Positions 20,523 to 26,362 of a DNA stretch of 64,000 nt are shown here, one piece after another. The position numbers and the translations under genes are program-made. The notes below the pieces were generated by a model, which was not told the DNA's origin, made no database searches, and was given only the letters and a program-made list of their open reading frames with translations. This DNA comes from Flavobacteriales bacterium (GTDB taxonomy: Bacteria > Bacteroidota > Bacteroidia > Flavobacteriales_D > Crocinitomicaceae), in NCBI GenBank assembly GCA_947447525.1, contig CANFJL010000006.1, forward strand, positions 62,001 through 126,000, in the 5' to 3' direction. Numbering within the stretch: the stretch's first letter is position 1; each line of letters begins with the position of its first letter.

Positions 20523-21782
20523 TTACAATTTCACGAAATGTTGTACCGAAGTATTATTAACTTGAATAGAGTAGGTGCCTTTTGCTAAAAAGGATACATT
20601 GATCTCCATTTCAGTTGATTGTACCATCAAGCGTCCTGAAGCATCTTTGATTTCAACTTGCTCTATAGGCATGTTGCTGTTGATCGTAATTATTTCACTT
20701 GAAGGATTTGGAAATACACCGAAAGTAAAGGATTGCTCTTGAATTGAATTGCTTGGTCGGACATCAAATACAATAGAACCTGGTGATGTTCCACATAAAA
20801 AACTGTTGCTCTCATTGTTTCCAGCATCGTAAATAAATACTTTCCCATAACTAAAAAAATCTGTTTCACTTGCATAAAGATGACCACTTATTGGCTCTTC
20901 TGCTAATTCGTAAAAGTTTCGGTTAAATCCTACTATTGGTCCCACATTGGTCATGCCATTGACATCAAATTCCTGTAGAACATTATCCATAGAGATTTGA
21001 TACACTAAGTTGTTTCCTTTCAAAGCTGAAGTTCCGCAGCCAGTAGATGCAAAAGCAATATTGCTAGTGGTTGCAGTAGAATTTCCTAAGGTTATTTTTG
21101 AAACAGATGCTCCAGACCAATCTTTATTGTTTACAGTATAAAGTGCTCCATTGGAAAGTAATAAGTTATCAGGATTTTTTCCATCAGGACCCAGGTCGAT
21201 TTCATTTCCGTAAGTGAGGGTGTTCAAGTCAAGTAAACCAACCAATCCTTTTTCATTTCCCCATTCATAACCATTGTTTACTGCGATATAAGCAGTTGTT
21301 CCCTCAATAACGATATTTTGAGTAGCCCATTTTGGACCATTTAAAGTATCAATTGACGCAATAAATTGTAAGGTATTTGAATTGAAAACTTGAAGGTAAG
21401 AATCATAAGTAGTAAGATATTCACCTCTTGTAGCAAGAATCATATTTTGATAAATACCTAAATTACGAACACCAGGACAAACTACAGATGCAATTTCTTG
21501 GTGGGTATTTAAATCTATCTTGAAGATTTTAGTGTCTGCTGCAACATAGTAATAATTACCATCAATGATTAAATCTGAAGCAAAGCGCATGCCTGGAAGC
21601 GTATTTACCGTGGTGTATGTTTGTGTGATTGGATTATAAGATCCAATGGTAACAGGTTCTATTTGAACATTATTGGTGTAATCGTAATTCCCTTCATTTA
21701 GAATTAATACTTGATGAAGTGTATTTTGAGCTTGAGTAAACAAGCTTAGACCTAATCCTAAAATAAAAAATACTTTTTTCAT
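20523..21782 (-). CDS. Secreted beta-propeller protein with T9SS type A tail, putative cobalamin binder
   Basis: 419 residues from ATG at 21782. A signal peptide (1-18) precedes a domain of roughly 320 residues built of repeated strands (ILNEGNYDYTNNVQIEPVTI, FKIDLNTHQEIASV, GLLDLNTLTYGNEIDLG), as in YncE/DUF5074 propellers. The last about 75 residues are a type A sorting domain (FGVFPNPSSEIITINSN to QHFVKL), so it is exported by the type IX system and probably anchored on the surface. A cobalamin riboswitch lies directly upstream on the same strand, so the protein is probably made when B12 is scarce. BtuG of Bacteroides is a surface propeller that captures B12; this may be a T9SS-delivered counterpart. 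Binding is inferred. Confidence 0.85.
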   Translation of the reverse strand: MKKVFFILGLGLSLFTQAQNTLHQVLILNEGNYDYTNNVQIEPVTIGSYNPITQTYTTVNTLPGMRFASDLIIDGNYYYVAADTKIFKIDLNTHQEIASVVCPGVRNLGIYQNMILATRGEYLTTYDSYLQVFNSNTLQFIASIDTLNGPKWATQNIVIEGTTAYIAVNNGYEWGNEKGLVGLLDLNTLTYGNEIDLGPDGKNPDNLLLSNGALYTVNNKDWSGASVSKITLGNSTATTSNIAFASTGCGTSALKGNNLVYQISMDNVLQEFDVNGMTNVGPIVGFNRNFYELAEEPISGHLYASETDFFSYGKVFIYDAGNNESNSFLCGTSPGSIVFDVRPSNSIQEQSFTFGVFPNPSSEIITINSNMPIEQVEIKDASGRLMVQSTEMEINVSFLAKGTYSIQVNNTSVQHFVKL

Positions 21783-21899: not shown

Positions 21900-22066
21900 C
21901 TTGGCAAGTCTTCTGGCTTACACTAAGTTCGAACCTCCTTCCCATATTTCCATACAGTGGACCTAGTTTCGTTTTTCAAGTGCTTACAGCTGCAGATACA
22001 GCTCCGGAATTGCACCGGATTCCTTATTAATCTCTTGTAAGGAGAACCTAAGAACAGTGCAAAATT
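21900..22066 (-). ncRNA. Cobalamin riboswitch
   Basis: Read on the minus strand, the segment shows the conserved core in order: GGAATCCGGTGCAATTCCGG, AGCTGTATCTGCAGCTGTAA, then CCACTGTATGG, GGGAAGGAGG and the 3' box AGCCAGAAGACTTGCC (21903-21918). This is the standard adenosylcobalamin/cobalamin aptamer layout. The coding start at 21782 lies about 120 nt downstream. A hairpin with arms AAGAATAC/GTATTCTT at about 21843-21862 lies in the expression platform and could sequester or terminate. Confidence 0.93.
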
Positions 22067-22131
22067 AACATTTATCTGGTTGATTTTAAGAAAATAAATA
22101 ATTAAAGTATTTTTACAATAAATATTCATGA

Positions 22132-22866
22132 ATGAAATCAGAACAATTTCAAATATTAATCTTTTTATTAATTTTCTTTTTCATATTTTCCATTGTATTG
22201 GTTGTTATGATAATTTCACAATGGAAAATCTATGAAAAGGCAGGAAAGCCAGGCTGGGCAGCTATTGTCCCTGTATACAATCAAATGGTTTTGGCAGAAA
22301 TTGGTGGCAAACCAGATGTATGGGGTTTATTAGCCTTAATTCCATATGTTGGAATTATATGGTCTGTTTGGTTGATTAACAGAATGGCTAAAAGTTTTGG
22401 AAAAGACGCTGGTTTTACTTTAGGTTTGATCTTCTTACCCCTCATTTTTTATCCAATATTGGCTTTTGGCGACTCAGAATATGTTGGACACCCTGATGTG
22501 GAAGACATCGAAGCTATAAATTCAAGCGACACTACAGTTACAACTGTATTAATTGATTTAAAAGAAGCAAAAAACGCTCAAATAATGGGAATAATATCTA
22601 TTATATTGGTTTTTTGCACTTGTTGTTATGGTGGACTAATTGCTGCGATTTTAGGATATTTAGCTATGAATAAAGGGAAAGAAGCTATTGCTGAATATGA
22701 AGCAAATCCTGGGATGTACACTTTAAAATCATTTAATCAGGCGAAGACGGGAAAAACTACAGGGCTCATTGGAATAATTGTAGGAATATTAGCTATCTTT
22801 TATATTGTTATTAGTTTATTGTATCGCTTTCTCTTAATCTCATATTTTAATAGTGGTTCTTTCTAA
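22132..22866 (+). CDS. Fused DUF5684 / CCC-motif membrane protein
   Basis: 244 residues from ATG. The N-terminal half (about 1-120) has a TM anchor, then KPGWAAIVPVYNQMVLAEIG, NRMAKSFGKD and GLIFLPLIFYPILAFG, as in DUF5684. The C-terminal half (about 135-244) is a CCC-motif membrane domain (VFCTCCYGGLIAAILGYLAM, then KGKEAIAEYEANPGMY). The neighbouring copy at 23060-23859 encodes the same two halves as separate genes. Loss of about 62 bp here joined them in frame. Function unknown; probably an inner-membrane protein. Confidence 0.88.
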   Translation: MKSEQFQILIFLLIFFFIFSIVLVVMIISQWKIYEKAGKPGWAAIVPVYNQMVLAEIGGKPDVWGLLALIPYVGIIWSVWLINRMAKSFGKDAGFTLGLIFLPLIFYPILAFGDSEYVGHPDVEDIEAINSSDTTVTTVLIDLKEAKNAQIMGIISIILVFCTCCYGGLIAAILGYLAMNKGKEAIAEYEANPGMYTLKSFNQAKTGKTTGLIGIIVGILAIFYIVISLLYRFLLISYFNSGSF

Positions 22867-22956
22867 TTGTTAAGTTTTTTATTTAAGGACTATTTTGGGT
22901 TTGATTGTCCCGGATGCGGGATTCTACGCTCCGGAATTGCAACGGATCCTTATTAA
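22867..22956 (+). pseudogene. Truncated DUF2752 gene at a duplication junction
   Basis: A 29-codon frame starting with TTG immediately after the preceding stop, as for the intact gene at 23860. It encodes FKDYFGFDCPGCGILRSG and then runs into sequence derived from the cobalamin riboswitch and stops. Only the first 22 or so residues match DUF2752, so the protein is broken. It marks the right endpoint of a tandem duplication. Confidence 0.8.
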
Positions 22957-23045
22957 TCTCTTGTTAGGAGAACCCAAGAACAATGAAAAATTAACATTTA
23001 TCTGATTGATATTAACAAAATAAATAATTAATGTATTTTTACGTG
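22930..23045 (-). other. Partial duplicate of cobalamin riboswitch 5' end and flank
   Basis: Near-identical to 22003-22118 (for example TTATTAATCTCTTGT and GAACCCAAGAACAATG against GAACCTAAGAACAGTG). It keeps only the first part of the aptamer as read on the minus strand and lacks the core and AGCCAG box, and the pairing GGATCC/GTTGC is altered. It has no gene to control on the minus strand, so it is a relic of the duplication. Confidence 0.8.
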
Positions 23046-23059
23046 AAAAAATTAAAATT

Positions 23060-23437
23060 ATGAAATCAGAAGACTCCCTAGCATTAATTTTATTCTTATC
23101 TCTATTTTTTATTGCTTTCATAATGGCTATCTTCCTTATAATTTGTCAATGGAAGATATTTGTAAAAGCAGGAAAGCCAGGTTGGGCAGCTATTGTCCCT
23201 GTATACAATCAAATGGTTTTGGCTGAAATTGGTGGAAAGCCAGATGTTTGGGGCTTATTGCCCTTAATCCCCTATATTGGTATTATCTGGTCCATTTGGT
23301 TGGTCAATAGAATGGCAAAAAGTTTTGGAAAAGATGTTGGTTTTACTTTAGGTTTGATTTTCTTACCCCTAATTTTTTATCCAATTTTAGCATTTGGTAA
23401 AACAGAATATGTTGGACACCCTGATGTGAAAAATTAA
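23060..23437 (+). CDS. DUF5684 family membrane protein
   Basis: 125 residues from ATG. A first TM (about residues 7-27) is followed by QWKIFVKAGKPGWAAIVPVY, KPDVWGLLPLIPYIGIIW, NRMAKSFGKD and a last TM ending AFGKTEYVGHPDVKN. The sequence is very close to residues 1-121 of the 22132 protein. The family is a small multi-pass membrane protein of unknown role found in many bacteria. It is followed after 50 bp by the CCC-motif gene, the unfused arrangement. Confidence 0.85.
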   Translation: MKSEDSLALILFLSLFFIAFIMAIFLIICQWKIFVKAGKPGWAAIVPVYNQMVLAEIGGKPDVWGLLPLIPYIGIIWSIWLVNRMAKSFGKDVGFTLGLIFLPLIFYPILAFGKTEYVGHPDVKN

Positions 23438-23487
23438 TTTTTACTATTAATTAATATTTATTTATCAAAAACTAAAAGTTTCTACAC

Positions 23488-23859
23488 ATGGAAAACATCG
23501 AAAGCACAAACACAAATGAAGGTTCAGTATCAAATGTTTTAATAGATTTAAAAGAGGCACAAACCGCTCAAATAATGGGGATAATTTCTCTTGTTTTAGT
23601 TTTTTGCACCTGTTGTTATGGAGGTTTAATAGGTGCGATTTTGGGATATTTAGCTATGAAAAAAGGTAAAGAAGCTATTGCTGAATATGAAGCAAATCCA
23701 GGCATGTACACTGAAAAATCATTTAATCAGGCGAAGACTGGAAAAACTACAGGTCTTATTGGTGTAATAGTTGGTATTTTAGCACTCTTATATATCGTGT
23801 TTAGTTTGGTGTTCGGATTTGCTTCGGCAATCTCAGATATGGGTAGAGGAGCTTTCTAA
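23488..23859 (+). CDS. CCC-motif membrane protein
   Basis: 123 residues. A hydrophilic N-terminus with DLKEAQTAQIMG precedes a TM with VFCTCCYGGLIGAILGYLAM, then a loop KGKEAIAEYEANPGMYTEKS and a second TM (TTGLIGVIVGILALLYIVFS). This layout is typical of the Bacteroidota CCC-motif family, which also resembles DUF4190. The next gene (DUF2752) starts at the base after its stop codon, implying coupling. Role unknown. Confidence 0.87.
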   Translation: MENIESTNTNEGSVSNVLIDLKEAQTAQIMGIISLVLVFCTCCYGGLIGAILGYLAMKKGKEAIAEYEANPGMYTEKSFNQAKTGKTTGLIGVIVGILALLYIVFSLVFGFASAISDMGRGAF

Positions 23860-24147
23860 TTGTTAAATTGTTTATTTAAAGACTATTTTGGCTTTGATTG
23901 TCCCGGATGCGGGATTCAACGCTCCTGTATTGCTTTGTTAAATGGCGATTTAGAAAAGTCACTTATACTATGCCCATCACTTTTGCTTTACATAAGTTTA
24001 ATACTATTACTGGTCTTAAGCACTGTCTTTAAAATGAATATTTCTTATAAGATTTTTGTTACCATTGCAATTTCGGCTCTAGTGATTCAAATTGCTTATT
24101 ATGGATTAAGAATGACAAATATTATTCATGTGAATTGTTACTTTTAA
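23860..24147 (+). CDS. DUF2752 family membrane protein
   Basis: 95 residues, start TTG directly after the CCC-motif stop. The hallmark FGFDCPGCGIQRSCIALLNGD (written here in part: FDCPGCGIQRS) is at residues 12-22, followed by two TM segments. DUF2752 proteins have a conserved C-P-G-C-G-x-x-R motif of unknown purpose. A truncated paralogue lies at 22867-22956 and two further family members at 24626 and 25539, so this neighbourhood is enriched in the family. Confidence 0.88.
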   Translation: MLNCLFKDYFGFDCPGCGIQRSCIALLNGDLEKSLILCPSLLLYISLILLLVLSTVFKMNISYKIFVTIAISALVIQIAYYGLRMTNIIHVNCYF

Positions 24148-24307
24148 TAATGCAAGTGATTTTTATTTTGTGAAAATTCAAATATCTAATTAAGTATTTA
24201 TCATCTATTCAATAAACTGCATTAATTCAATCTTTTATTAATAAAAAAAAATAAATTTGACGACTTTACTTTTTTTTATTTTTAAGTTGCGTATTAAAAT
24301 ATTTTGT

Positions 24308-24315
24308 TATATTTG
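24308..24315 (+). promoter_or_regulatory. -33/-7 promoter for the TM2 gene
   Basis: TATATTTG at the -7 position, with TTG at 24287-24289 and an 18-bp spacer, 28 nt upstream of the ATG at 24343. Both elements match the Bacteroidota consensus. Confidence 0.6.
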
Positions 24316-24342
24316 AATTATAAACTTTAAAACTTTTTAAAA

Positions 24343-24570
24343 ATGGAAGATCAAAAACCTGTTGAAGTACAGAAAAAAATGATGATGATTTTAATCGCTT
24401 GGTTCATTGGATGGACTGGTTTACACAAGAAAATGATGGGTTATCCAAAGTGGTGGTTAAATTTATTATTAACTCCTTGTTTCGGAATTGGTGTATTAAT
24501 GGGAGTTATTGATTTTTGGAGACTTGTTTTCGGAAATTTGAAAATGGCTGATGGTCGTGATTTAGAATAA
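24343..24570 (+). CDS. Short TM2-domain-like membrane protein
   Basis: 75 residues, ATG. A short polar start (MEDQKPVEVQKK) is followed by two TM segments with WFIGWTGLHKKMMGYPKWWL, which resembles the TM2 domain pattern of G-x-x-G-x-H-x-x-x-G, then a loop with IDFWRLVFGNLKMADGRDLE. Its first 8 residues and 24 bases are identical to the TM2 protein at 24944, so the pair arose by duplication. An intrinsic terminator follows at 24593. Function unknown. Confidence 0.82.
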   Translation: MEDQKPVEVQKKMMMILIAWFIGWTGLHKKMMGYPKWWLNLLLTPCFGIGVLMGVIDFWRLVFGNLKMADGRDLE

Positions 24571-24592
24571 TTCATAAATACAACTAAAATTT

Positions 24593-24618
24593 AAAGCAGG
24601 CTTATGCCTGCTTTTTTT
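24593..24618 (+). terminator. Intrinsic terminator between TM2 and DUF2752 genes
   Basis: AAAGCAGGC, loop TTAT, GCCTGCTTT and a T tract, a strong Rho-independent terminator. The next gene's ATG at 24626 is only 7 nt past it, so that gene depends on read-through or on a promoter overlapping the terminator. Confidence 0.88.
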
Positions 24619-24625
24619 GTCCAAT

Positions 24626-24928
24626 ATGTTTCCATGTGTTTATTATTATTATTTTGGAATTGAATGTCCCGGTTGCGGTTTTCAAAGATCAATAGTTCAC
24701 CTTTTTCATGGTGATTTTTATTTTAGTTTACTTCTCTTTCCAGGGCTAATTCCGCTCTTGATATTTCTGCTTTATCAAACTATTATTTTGTTCTTCGTAG
24801 ATCTAAAAAGAAAAAAAACACTAAAGAAATTTTCAAATACATGTGGCGTTTTAGCTTTAACGATTCAATTTGTGCTCTACGCCTTAAAGTGGATGGAATT
24901 ATATCCATGGACACATGATGTTTTTTAA
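24626..24928 (+). CDS. DUF2752 family membrane protein
   Basis: 100 residues from ATG at 24626; an in-frame TTG at 24617 lies inside the terminator. FGIECPGCGFQRSIVHLFHG carries the C-P-G-C-G-x-x-R motif near the N-terminus, followed by two TM segments and a short C-terminal segment ending TDVF-like residues (HDVF). It is the second complete DUF2752 member, again paired with a small membrane protein gene on either side. Role unknown. Confidence 0.85.
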   Translation: MFPCVYYYYFGIECPGCGFQRSIVHLFHGDFYFSLLLFPGLIPLLIFLLYQTIILFFVDLKRKKTLKKFSNTCGVLALTIQFVLYALKWMELYPWTHDVF

Positions 24929-24943
24929 TTAAACTATTTTATA

Positions 24944-25237
24944 ATGGAAGATCAAAAACCTGTTGAAAATAAAAAAATTATGGCTGCAGTGACAGCTATA
25001 CTTGTTGGCTATATTGGTATACACAAATTTGTTTTAGGATATAATCAAGAAGGAATTATCTATCTTATTGCTAATTTAGTAATTGTTCCAACTATTGGGT
25101 CCTTAACTTGTGGTGTTGGATTCGCACTATATGGAGTGACTTATCTTATTCCAGTCATCGAGGGCATCATCTACCTTACCAAATCAGATGAAGATTTTAT
25201 GAATACATACCAACTTAACAAAAAAGCTTGGTTTTAA
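24944..25237 (+). CDS. TM2-domain membrane protein
   Basis: 97 residues from ATG. MEDQKPVENKK is followed by a TM with VTAILVGYIGIHKFVLGYNQ, the TM2-type G-x-x-G-x-H-x-F-x-L-G-Y pattern, and a second hydrophobic stretch with TIGSLTCGVGFALYG. A C-terminal region (EGIIYLTKSDEDFMNTYQLN) is typical of longer TM2 proteins. It begins 16 nt after the DUF2752 stop and is followed 12 nt later by the CD225-like gene. Confidence 0.88.
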   Translation: MEDQKPVENKKIMAAVTAILVGYIGIHKFVLGYNQEGIIYLIANLVIVPTIGSLTCGVGFALYGVTYLIPVIEGIIYLTKSDEDFMNTYQLNKKAWF

Positions 25238-25249
25238 TTTTTTAGCACT

Positions 25250-25558
25250 ATGGAAGAATTAAATGTTCAAAACAATAACAATCAAATCAATAATCAAGGT
25301 TATGTTCCGGCAAAACCTAATAATTATTTAGCATTGTCTATCATTACCACTGTAATGTGTTGCATGCCCTTGGGTGTTGTAAGTATCATTCAATCTACTA
25401 AGGTGGATGGTTTGTACAATGAAGGAAAATACCAAGAGGCCGAAGCAAAATCTAAGTCTGCAAAAAATTGGGCCATTGCTGGAATCGTCGTAATGGGTAT
25501 CTTTTGGATTTTGTATATTCTATTATTTGTTTTGTTAGGTGTTGCTGGCAATTTGTAA
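25250..25558 (+). CDS. CD225/dispanin-like membrane protein
   Basis: 102 residues from ATG. After an Asn/Gln-rich start, PNNYLALSIITTVMCCMPLG begins the first TM, the loop QSTKVDGLYNEGKYQEAEAK carries the family-typical Y-x-x-G-x-x-x-x-A, and SKSAKNWAIAGIVVMGIFWI is the second TM. Dispanins in animals (IFITM) sit in membranes and block viral fusion; bacterial members have no established role. The end overlaps the next DUF2752 gene by 20 nt. Confidence 0.85.
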   Translation: MEELNVQNNNNQINNQGYVPAKPNNYLALSIITTVMCCMPLGVVSIIQSTKVDGLYNEGKYQEAEAKSKSAKNWAIAGIVVMGIFWILYILLFVLLGVAGNL

Positions 25559-25964
25559 GCAACTCAATAAAAATAAATTTTATTGGATCTTTTATCTGAT
25601 CGTAATTGCTGGGATAATTTATTTCAAATTTTATTCGAATACCAACAAGTCGCTGCTTCCCCCTTGTGTTATTTATAAATATACGGGTTGGTATTGTGGA
25701 GGTTGTGGTATTCAAAGAGGTTTACATGAACTCTCATTAGGCCATTTCTTAAATGCTTTGCGTTTTAACATTCTATTGATCATTGGGTCTATTATTTTAA
25801 TTATAGATTTCATTCTTATGTTGTTAGGCATAGATAAGTATCGTCCTGTTCCTTTTATTTTCACCAATAATAAAATGGGTTGGTTCGTATTTATTGTTGT
25901 TTTTCTATTTATTTTCTTGAGGAATATTCCCTTTTCTCCTTTTAATGCCTTGGCTCCTCATTGA
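25539..25964 (+). CDS. DUF2752 family membrane protein, longer member
   Basis: 141 residues, probable GTG start at 25539 overlapping the CD225-like gene. A first TM (about residues 14-32) is followed by CVIYKYTGWYCGGCGIQRGL, the family motif with Gly in place of Pro, then two further TM segments. The C-terminal FSPFNALAPH is characteristic of longer DUF2752 proteins. Translational coupling to the dispanin-like gene links the two products. Confidence 0.85.
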   Translation: MLLAICKQLNKNKFYWIFYLIVIAGIIYFKFYSNTNKSLLPPCVIYKYTGWYCGGCGIQRGLHELSLGHFLNALRFNILLIIGSIILIIDFILMLLGIDKYRPVPFIFTNNKMGWFVFIVVFLFIFLRNIPFSPFNALAPH

Positions 25965-26026
25965 TTACCGCTATAATATTTAATGGAACAATAACATACT
26001 TTTTTTATTATTCAGAAAAGTAGTTG

Positions 26027-26034
26027 TATATTTG
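26027..26034 (+). promoter_or_regulatory. -7 promoter element for rpsO
   Basis: TATATTTG followed by CACCG, the form seen at many ribosomal protein genes of the phylum, 58 nt upstream of the rpsO ATG at 26093. Confidence 0.65.
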
Positions 26035-26043
26035 CACCGATAT

Positions 26044-26060
26044 TTCCGATAGAGTCGGAA
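26044..26060 (+). promoter_or_regulatory. Candidate leader hairpin of rpsO
   Basis: TTCCGA and TCGGAA pair around a 5-nt loop in the 5' leader. S15 autoregulates by binding its leader in several bacteria, but the structures differ between phyla, so this is only a candidate. Confidence 0.3.
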
Positions 26061-26092
26061 TACTACATAAAAATTATTTATACAATATTGGC

Positions 26093-26362
26093 ATGTATTT
26101 AAACCCAGAAGCAAAAAAAGCAATCTTCGCTAAACACGGAGGTTCAGAAACGAACACAGGATCTACTGAAGGTCAAGTAGCATTATTTACTTACAGAATT
26201 AGTCATTTGACTGAGCATTTGAAGAAAAATCGTAAAGATTTTGGAACACAACGCTCACTTCAATTACTAGTAGGTAAAAGAAGAAGTCTTTTGGACTATT
26301 TGAAAAGTAATGACATTGAAAAATATCGTGCCTTGGTTAAAGAATTAGGACTTCGTCGTTAA
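26093..26362 (+). CDS. rpsO: 30S ribosomal protein S15
   Basis: 89 residues from ATG at 26093 (MYLNPEAKKAIFAKHG), the standard length and start for Bacteroidota S15; the open frame upstream to 26024 is leader. Family landmarks are GSTEGQVALFTYRISHLTEH, KKNRKDFGTQRSLQLLVGKR and the terminal YRALVKELGLRR. It binds 16S rRNA in the central domain of the 30S subunit. It is followed by an intrinsic terminator and pnp, the common rpsO-pnp order. Confidence 0.98.
   Translation: MYLNPEAKKAIFAKHGGSETNTGSTEGQVALFTYRISHLTEHLKKNRKDFGTQRSLQLLVGKRRSLLDYLKSNDIEKYRALVKELGLRR

Follow-up and report, generated by a model that had tools for sequence, protein, structure and literature searches.

The small membrane-protein genes at positions 22132-25964 of the window, by which we mean the whole 64,000-nt stretch analysed here (contig CANFJL010000006.1 of a Flavobacteriales bacterium, GCA_947447525.1), comprise, on the plus strand throughout, three complete copies of DUF2752 and a truncated one, set among genes of the DUF5684, CCC-motif, TM2 and CD225/dispanin families. 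We read this block as a set that arose by doubling and expansion of a widespread two-gene membrane module, the products of which act together as one complex, and assign this reading a probability of roughly 0.62; the module would consist of DUF2752 and a small two-helix protein (CD225/dispanin, TM2, CCC, DUF4234 or DUF5684). The evidence is that the genes are linked and closely spaced on one strand, that the pairing recurs across phyla and partner type is inherited jointly with DUF2752, and that DUF2752, a domain for which we know of no function, has three strongly conserved cysteines. The association of DUF2752 with its partners is genuine and extends far beyond the window, and at the level of gene linkage the reading as a system is well supported. 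An earlier first-pass annotation, made from the letters of the window, had already listed DUF2752 genes at 23860, 24626 and 25539 and a truncated one at 22867, and PF10825 scores bear this out. The block contains the following features:

22132-22866, plus strand: DUF5684 fused to a CCC-motif membrane protein, 244 aa, first duplication copy (PF18936, 92.3 bits; NF040945, 54.6 bits)
22867-22956, plus strand: truncated DUF2752, 29-aa open frame (26.5 bits over profile positions 2-22; 27 with its frame)
22928-23042: copied upstream region, i.e., the 5' part of a cobalamin riboswitch and the stretch before the first gene (92-95% identity to 22001-22116)
23060-23437, plus strand: DUF5684 protein, second copy (PF18936, 91.3 bits; cut-off 27.4)
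23488-23859, plus strand: CCC-motif two-helix membrane protein (NF040945, 69.8 bits; cut-off 65)
23860-24147, plus strand: DUF2752 no. 1 (PF10825, 51.8 bits; cut-off 27), in the CCC-type set on the tree
24343-24570, plus strand: TM2-like protein, 75 aa (PF05154, 27.8 bits against a cut-off of 27.9; E 3e-6)
24593-24614: hairpin resembling an intrinsic terminator, between the TM2 gene and DUF2752 no. 2 (-14.7 kcal/mol; z -4.5)
24626-24928, plus strand: DUF2752 no. 2 (PF10825, 50.1 bits), in the CCC-type set, nearest tree row DUF2752 no. 1
24944-25237, plus strand: TM2 protein, 97 aa, 15 nt 3' of DUF2752 no. 2 (PF05154, 46.2 bits; cut-off 27.9)
25250-25558, plus strand: CD225/dispanin protein with a CC pair in its first hydrophobic stretch (PF04505, 77.0 bits; cut-off 27.1)
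25539-25964, plus strand: DUF2752 no. 3, GTG start, 20-nt overlap with the CD225 gene (PF10825, 49.4 bits), in the CD225-type set on a long branch

The tight spacing claimed for all pairs holds in part. DUF2752 no. 1 starts with TTG immediately after the TAA of the CCC gene, the same arrangement is found at 22867, and the CD225 gene overlaps DUF2752 no. 3; the TM2 gene at 24343, in contrast, is separated from the DUF2752 gene at 24626 by a 55-nt gap holding the terminator-like hairpin, so that this pairing is loose.

Neighbours of DUF2752 across bacterial phyla

Of 296 Bacteroidota genomes, 154 contain DUF2752, and 130 loci in 30 family groups were taken from the places listed. Since gene calling by codon bias missed 82 of 140 centres, a length-aware caller was used, followed by six-frame profile searches that do not depend on gene calls; the local profiles were seeded from the window genes and their neighbours, a bias of which the Pfam-based checks are free. 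One of eight partner families, four of which (DUF4234, DUF4870, DUF4199 and RDD) were added only after the neighbours had been seen, lies within 1 kb of DUF2752 in 108 of the 130 loci, and the four families of the first-pass annotation alone account for 101.

The six-frame TM2 profile gave 77 matches, of which 73 lie within 0.5 kb of DUF2752, three at 0.5-1 kb and one at 1-2 kb, and TM2 is close to DUF2752 in 22 of the 30 family groups. All 25 CCC and both CD225 matches are likewise found within 1 kb, and the matches to all three profiles are on the DUF2752 strand. None of these profiles has a match in the 1,697 kb that lie 2-9 kb from DUF2752 in the same loci. Random neighbours of DUF2752, the outcome by which the first-pass annotation would have been refuted, are clearly contradicted by these numbers (TM2 76, CCC 25 and CD225 2 within 1 kb; 0 at 2-9 kb). 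Gene-based counts give a similar picture: among 143 abutting small genes on the same strand (107/130 loci), 68 are TM2 and 20 CCC, while the rest include DUF4234 (7), DUF4870 (7), DUF4199 (4), DUF5684 (3) and CD225 (2); among 126 distal control small genes of the same loci, TM2 is outside the 25 commonest of 119 families, with at most two weak matches possible. With the Pfam TM2 model, a listed DUF2752 is found within 1.5 kb of 57 of the 150 TM2 places listed for the 296 genomes; extending the distance to 20 kb adds a single place. Both families occur in 136 of these genomes, TM2 only in 28, and DUF2752 only in 18. Two loci (L214 and L224) carry a TM2 gene of the DUF2752-linked subtype with no DUF2752 nearby; that of L214 is at a contig end, where the neighbour may have been cut off.

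Seen from the side of CD225, the linkage is close as well. CD225 scores over the cut-off in four of the 296 Bacteroidota genomes, including that of the window, and adjoins DUF2752 in all four; a fifth match, below the cut-off and containing stops, is not beside DUF2752. In 149 Actinomycetota genomes, 13 of 16 CD225 genes over the cut-off have a DUF2752 gene on the same strand in their 1.5-kb flank (11 of 14 upon exclusion of genome G352, a centre genome chosen for having the pair), and the other three, together with two sub-threshold matches, lack an adjoining DUF2752.

A cross-phylum set, consisting of the best 80 of 579 loci and leaning to one subtype, contains 22 Bacteroidota loci, some from genomes of the first set, with the others coming from Actinomycetota, Bacillota, Planctomycetota, Lentisphaerota and others. 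In this set, CD225 is found at most 700 nt from DUF2752 in 50 loci, always on the same strand, and any partner is present in 62, two of which rest on weak CCC matches; four further weak CCC matches on the minus strand fall in loci that already have CD225. In 39 of the genomes behind these loci, which were chosen for DUF2752, 40 of 41 CD225 genes belong to a DUF2752 locus by their coordinates. The CD225-DUF2752 pair occurs in 13 named phyla, i.e., 12 beyond that of the window, and because the same pairing recurs in so many bacterial phyla, partner and DUF2752 probably work together. Arrays recur, too, since both Arenimonas composti (CD225-DUF2752-CD225-DUF2752) and Flaviramulus (see below) carry multi-module loci, and in L291, L292 and L303 two CD225 genes are followed by one DUF2752.

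The type of partner follows the descent of DUF2752. In a tree built from 94 columns of 233 DUF2752 domains, 226 of them different, in which many forks are unresolved and whose rows were picked by at least two of the three cysteines, neighbour type changes 38 times as compared with a shuffled mean of 138.1, and none of 200 shuffles was as low, with near-copies contributing to the low count. The interchangeable partners supposed in the first-pass annotation are, hence, not supported; by this tree, partner and DUF2752 are mostly inherited together. DUF2752 no. 1 and no. 2 are mutually nearest and belong to a supported set of 35 rows (21 CCC, 11 partnerless), while no. 3 is in a supported set of ten rows, nine of them with CD225, its placement being less sure due to the long branch. 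Judged from these positions, the window seems to join two old module lineages, and DUF2752 no. 2, which is of the CCC lineage yet flanked by TM2 genes and constitutes the exception within the window, seems to have changed its neighbour. Gene order differs between CD225 and TM2 partners: CD225 is solely downstream in two of 71 rows with a CD225 neighbour, whereas TM2 is downstream in 50 rows versus eight with TM2 upstream and nine with TM2 upstream together with DUF4870.

Conserved cysteines and the weighing of explanations

Of the motif C-P-G-C-G-x-x-R previously described as constant in DUF2752, the last two cysteines stand; a third, upstream cysteine had been missed, and the arginine is present in only 73%. 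The motif is better written as C-x9-C-x2-C-G, with its cysteines in 96, 98 and 93% of 148 aligned Bacteroidota domains and all three in 132 of them. In the CD225-linked subtype (66 sequences), R60 is invariant, as is an R-N pair following the last helix, and N77 is nearly so. The predicted fold of DUF2752 no. 3 (mean pLDDT 85.6, pTM 0.67) has three membrane-length helices, with shorter helices after the cysteine segment; a Foldseek search found no solved structural relative. Net charges are +1.1 for the N-terminal tail, +1.9 for the loop between helices 2 and 3, and +0.15 for the cysteine loop, a pattern that, following the positive-inside rule, would place the first two inside and the cysteine loop outside.

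Cysteines are also frequent in the partners. Of 93 different CD225-profile matches, 92 have a cysteine among their first 45 residues and 71 a CC pair (seven of 99 matches, repeats included, fit the CCC profile better), and the TM2 core contains cysteine in 78 of 81 different DUF2752-adjacent versus 41 of 60 non-adjacent sequences. By eye, the CD225 partners of six cross-phylum loci (L237, L250, L258, L261, L283 and L301) have zinc ribbon-like CxxC pairs at their start, suggestive of an N-terminus in the cytoplasm.

Taken together, these features allow a mechanism to be sketched. Both products would reside in the cytoplasmic membrane and form one physical complex. DUF2752 would start from an inside N-terminus and have three membrane-length helices, its C-x9-C-x2-C loop lying close to the outer face. 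The cysteine or cysteines in the hydrophobic stretch of the partner and those of DUF2752 might constitute one thiol centre that controls the state of the pair, acting by disulfide exchange or as a metal site; possibly, this represents a shared thiol or metal centre in an undescribed two-component module. The partner cysteine counts agree with such a shared centre and do not prove it; co-occurrence of cysteines was rejected as proof because there are exceptions in both directions.

Several observations weigh against a complex of this kind. The exceptions just referred to are DUF2752-adjacent CD225 proteins with one or no cysteine in the first stretch (L316, L318-L320 and L326), CD225 proteins which are not beside DUF2752 yet keep the CC pair (L313, L321 and L325), and seven DUF2752 domains which lack the last cysteine and retain a TM2 neighbour. 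No recognised partner is present in 22 of the 130 Bacteroidota loci, ten of them in one genus (f16/g17), nor in 18 of the 80 cross-phylum loci, nine of them Micromonospora; thus, DUF2752 can stand alone. Conversely, 92 of the 150 TM2 places listed are more than 20 kb from a listed DUF2752 or on another contig. The loci belong to related genomes, which makes the counts non-independent; among the loci examined, DUF2752 was never seen naturally fused to a partner; and a single-chain model of CD225-DUF2752 (pLDDT 76.7, pTM 0.57; no coordinates) is silent on contact.

Some of the partnerless loci deserve description in their own right. Those of f16/g17 are L047, L052, L074, L075, L076, L079, L081, L083, L084 and L097, and congeneric loci have CCC or DUF4234, which suggests that the partner was lost or is a distant one. 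The four of the nine partnerless Micromonospora loci that were examined showed no small two-helix gene. In a planctomycete locus scored as partnerless, a small two-helix gene (L284:3698-3973) resembling that of L229 is discernible by eye ahead of DUF2752. Stop-codon readthrough between partner and DUF2752 was also considered: in about 26 of 117 rows with an upstream partner, both are in one frame with a stop between, and the idea was rejected because this is below the one in three given by chance.

As a first alternative, which we judge unlikely albeit worth keeping in view, DUF2752 might be a maturation or insertion factor, either an oxidoreductase or a chaperone, that handles the insertion or folding of the two-helix partner or modifies its cysteines and stays outside the final assembly. 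A C-x9-CxxC segment on the likely outer face and partner cysteines within the membrane stretch would suit this role, as would the scarcity of rows with CD225 solely downstream and the ability of one DUF2752 to follow two CD225 genes. The reversed order with TM2 partners, where DUF2752 usually comes first, speaks against it, and so do the lack of a match to any solved fold and the CD225 proteins that have DUF2752 despite missing the CC pair.

Somewhat less probable is mere co-expression, in which small membrane proteins responding to one and the same envelope stress share a transcript, each acting alone. DUF2752 and TM2 do occur singly in some genomes, fusions were not seen, the partner families differ in sequence, and the terminator-like hairpin splits one apparent pair. 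Such an assemblage of independent genes is, however, difficult to reconcile with the prominence of one neighbour: among genes of at least 90 aa within 4 kb, TM2 forms the widest recurring cluster (20 family groups), while the next-widest, DUF4870-like and M48, reach six of the 30 family groups each. The prevailing order of CD225 and then DUF2752 and the tracking of DUF2752 ancestry by partner type argue in the same direction, i.e., for a module of two proteins acting together.

CD225 is the domain of the IFITM proteins, the human family of which is antiviral. According to PMC4488726, mycobacterial IFITMs restrict influenza virus in human cells, and the block of the window is a lineage-specific stretch of 3.9 kb; from this, an anti-phage or superinfection-exclusion unit, as a bacterial counterpart of IFITM restriction, could be envisaged. 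We regard it as very improbable. No PADLOC model matched the seven proteins at E 0.01 in a scan that did not extend to defence genes in the neighbourhood; among 50,697 phage records, one CD225 query had one match and one DUF2752 query two, which gives no support for a phage role, and the 72,556 plasmid records gave three matches to one DUF2752 query. Six pattern matches in viral contigs included no relative, which is weak evidence since a single-protein query was used. The sole phage record matching both the CD225 and the DUF2752 query (MT839860.1, 3052-3738; 7.5 kb, human faecal, unannotated) is possibly bacterial DNA with the same pairing. Finally, chance clustering of common small membrane genes, conceivable in so far as the families are short and hydrophobic and weak profile matches may arise, is rejected by the distance distribution in the flanking 1,697 kb together with the reverse counts for CD225 in Bacteroidota and Actinomycetota, and hardly retains any weight.

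Duplication and origin of the block

What had been taken for two separate CCC modules is one module doubled by a single tandem duplication, whose repeat blocks are offset by 926-993 nt and share 83-95% identity. The blocks 22210-22503, 22499-22798 and 22836-22940 are repeated 928-993 nt downstream at 83-87% identity, and the region upstream of the first gene (22001-22116) is repeated as listed above. The joint of the duplication lies inside the truncated DUF2752, whose frame enters the repeated upstream region and ends at 22956. In the first copy, DUF5684 and CCC share one reading frame, whereas they are separate genes in the second; the fused gene remains under the NF040945 cut-off of 65 and, hence, is not assigned to CCC by this profile, its kinship to the CCC gene at 23488-23859 being given by the duplication. 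The DUF5684 and CCC parts have 98/123 and 90/121 residues identical between the copies, dS values of 0.675 and 0.678 and dN/dS ratios of 0.18 and 0.22. The duplication is, thus, of old date, and selection seems to have preserved both copies in spite of the loss of one DUF2752. The non-coding stretches 22021-22116 and 22947-23042 share 92% identity despite a dS of 0.68 for the flanking genes; this may reflect a constrained promoter or gene conversion.

To the left, the block is flanked by a minus-strand gene for a type IX secretion system (T9SS)-type secreted protein (20523-21782), preceded by a cobalamin riboswitch (RF00174, 22067-21886, minus strand, 102 bits), and to the right by rpsO, with its S15-Flavobacteria ribosomal leader at 26027-26095 directly 3' of the block. 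In six congeners (L330, L331, L332, L334, L339 and L340), the T9SS-type gene and riboswitch adjoin rpsO with no block in between; in L330, homology ends at window position 22075 and restarts at 26010, with 71 nt separating the two points. In 17 congeners with rpsO, the profiles for DUF2752, CD225, TM2, CCC, DUF5684 and DUF4234 found no match within about 1.5 kb of that gene. Being absent from these places, the block of about 3.9 kb is specific to this lineage among the congeners examined and was either gained here or lost elsewhere. Its GC content is low (0.27-0.33 versus 0.33-0.40 nearby). Small hydrophobic genes, however, have a high AT content in any case, and the difference was, therefore, not accepted as proving transfer.

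The source genome has one further DUF2752 (C6:144473; locus L063:8245-9201), located 6 nt after a gene whose 215-aa product carries a TM2 domain at its C-terminus. Inspection by eye shows proteins of similar appearance ahead of DUF2752 in the congeners L055, L057 and L059, although the TM2 profile has no match there.

Comparison with known systems

No described system with these parts was found; the families themselves are known, and gene-neighbourhood databases may already hold the link. Searches on bacterial dispanins, CD225 and TM2 yielded no paper that reports the DUF2752-partner pairing in its title or the start of its abstract, and in the papers searched, which exclude most subscription journals, neither DUF2752 nor PF10825 was found by name and no bacterial role was found for DUF2752, TM2 or CCC proteins. 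In PMC3861447, a TM2 gene is placed near stlA, a gut salt-tolerance locus, and TM2 function is called unknown.

Animal IFITMs have been proposed to derive from bacterial IFITM-like proteins, whose function in bacteria had, according to PMC4488726, gone unstudied by 2015, and PMC3282796 leaves open why the CC pair exists in bacteria, which are said there to lack S-palmitoylation. DUF2752 is a candidate partner for bacterial dispanins, and if most bacterial CD225 proteins come with a three-cysteine partner, the questions of dispanin function and of the CC pair become testable; this would also provide a first functional handle on DUF2752, TM2 and CCC proteins. An extension which we consider quite doubtful would make DUF2752 the dedicated partner of bacterial dispanins and of their two-helix analogues. 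In bacteria, the conserved CC pair would then have had its first role in a thiol or metal centre to which the three DUF2752 cysteines also contribute; once transferred to animals, the dispanin would have lost its partner, and the CC pair would have been reused for IFITM palmitoylation.

Variants of the module are known from other loci. In nine loci of six family groups (L031, L041, L048, L070, L071, L093, L094, L096 and L106), the four-gene order TM2, DUF2752, DUF4870-like, M48 metallopeptidase is found (Pfam-confirmed in one), and this version hints at membrane-protein quality control. As to the TM2 family (PF05154), for which one window gene scores over the cut-off and another just below it, the DUF2752-linked subtype with GLC-x-IGT-x-x-D is common in Bacteroidota, while most TM2 places among those listed are away from DUF2752. 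A Rhodococcus plasmid has a DUF2752 with no such partner annotated. On the Streptomyces cadmiisoli plasmid NZ_CP030074.1, the order TM2-DUF2752-TM2 is that of window positions 24343-25237, with the first TM2 gene and DUF2752 overlapping by 8 nt; unlike in the window, no CCC, CD225 or DUF5684 is annotated in the 5.2 kb viewed.

The gene at 25250-25558 is a member of the CD225/dispanin family (IFITM, PF04505) by its profile score and has the CC pair. Like most bacterial CD225 genes examined, it is followed by DUF2752, an arrangement for which the dispanin paper PMC3282796, in its main text, contains neither "operon" nor "neighbo". A further counterpart of the block is found in Flaviramulus (L274). 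There, the CCC module is reversed in order and no TM2 or DUF5684 match occurs in the stretch examined; nevertheless, its order CD225-DUF2752-DUF2752-CCC places the two module lineages of the window next to each other, and its first DUF2752 is the nearest tree row to DUF2752 no. 3.

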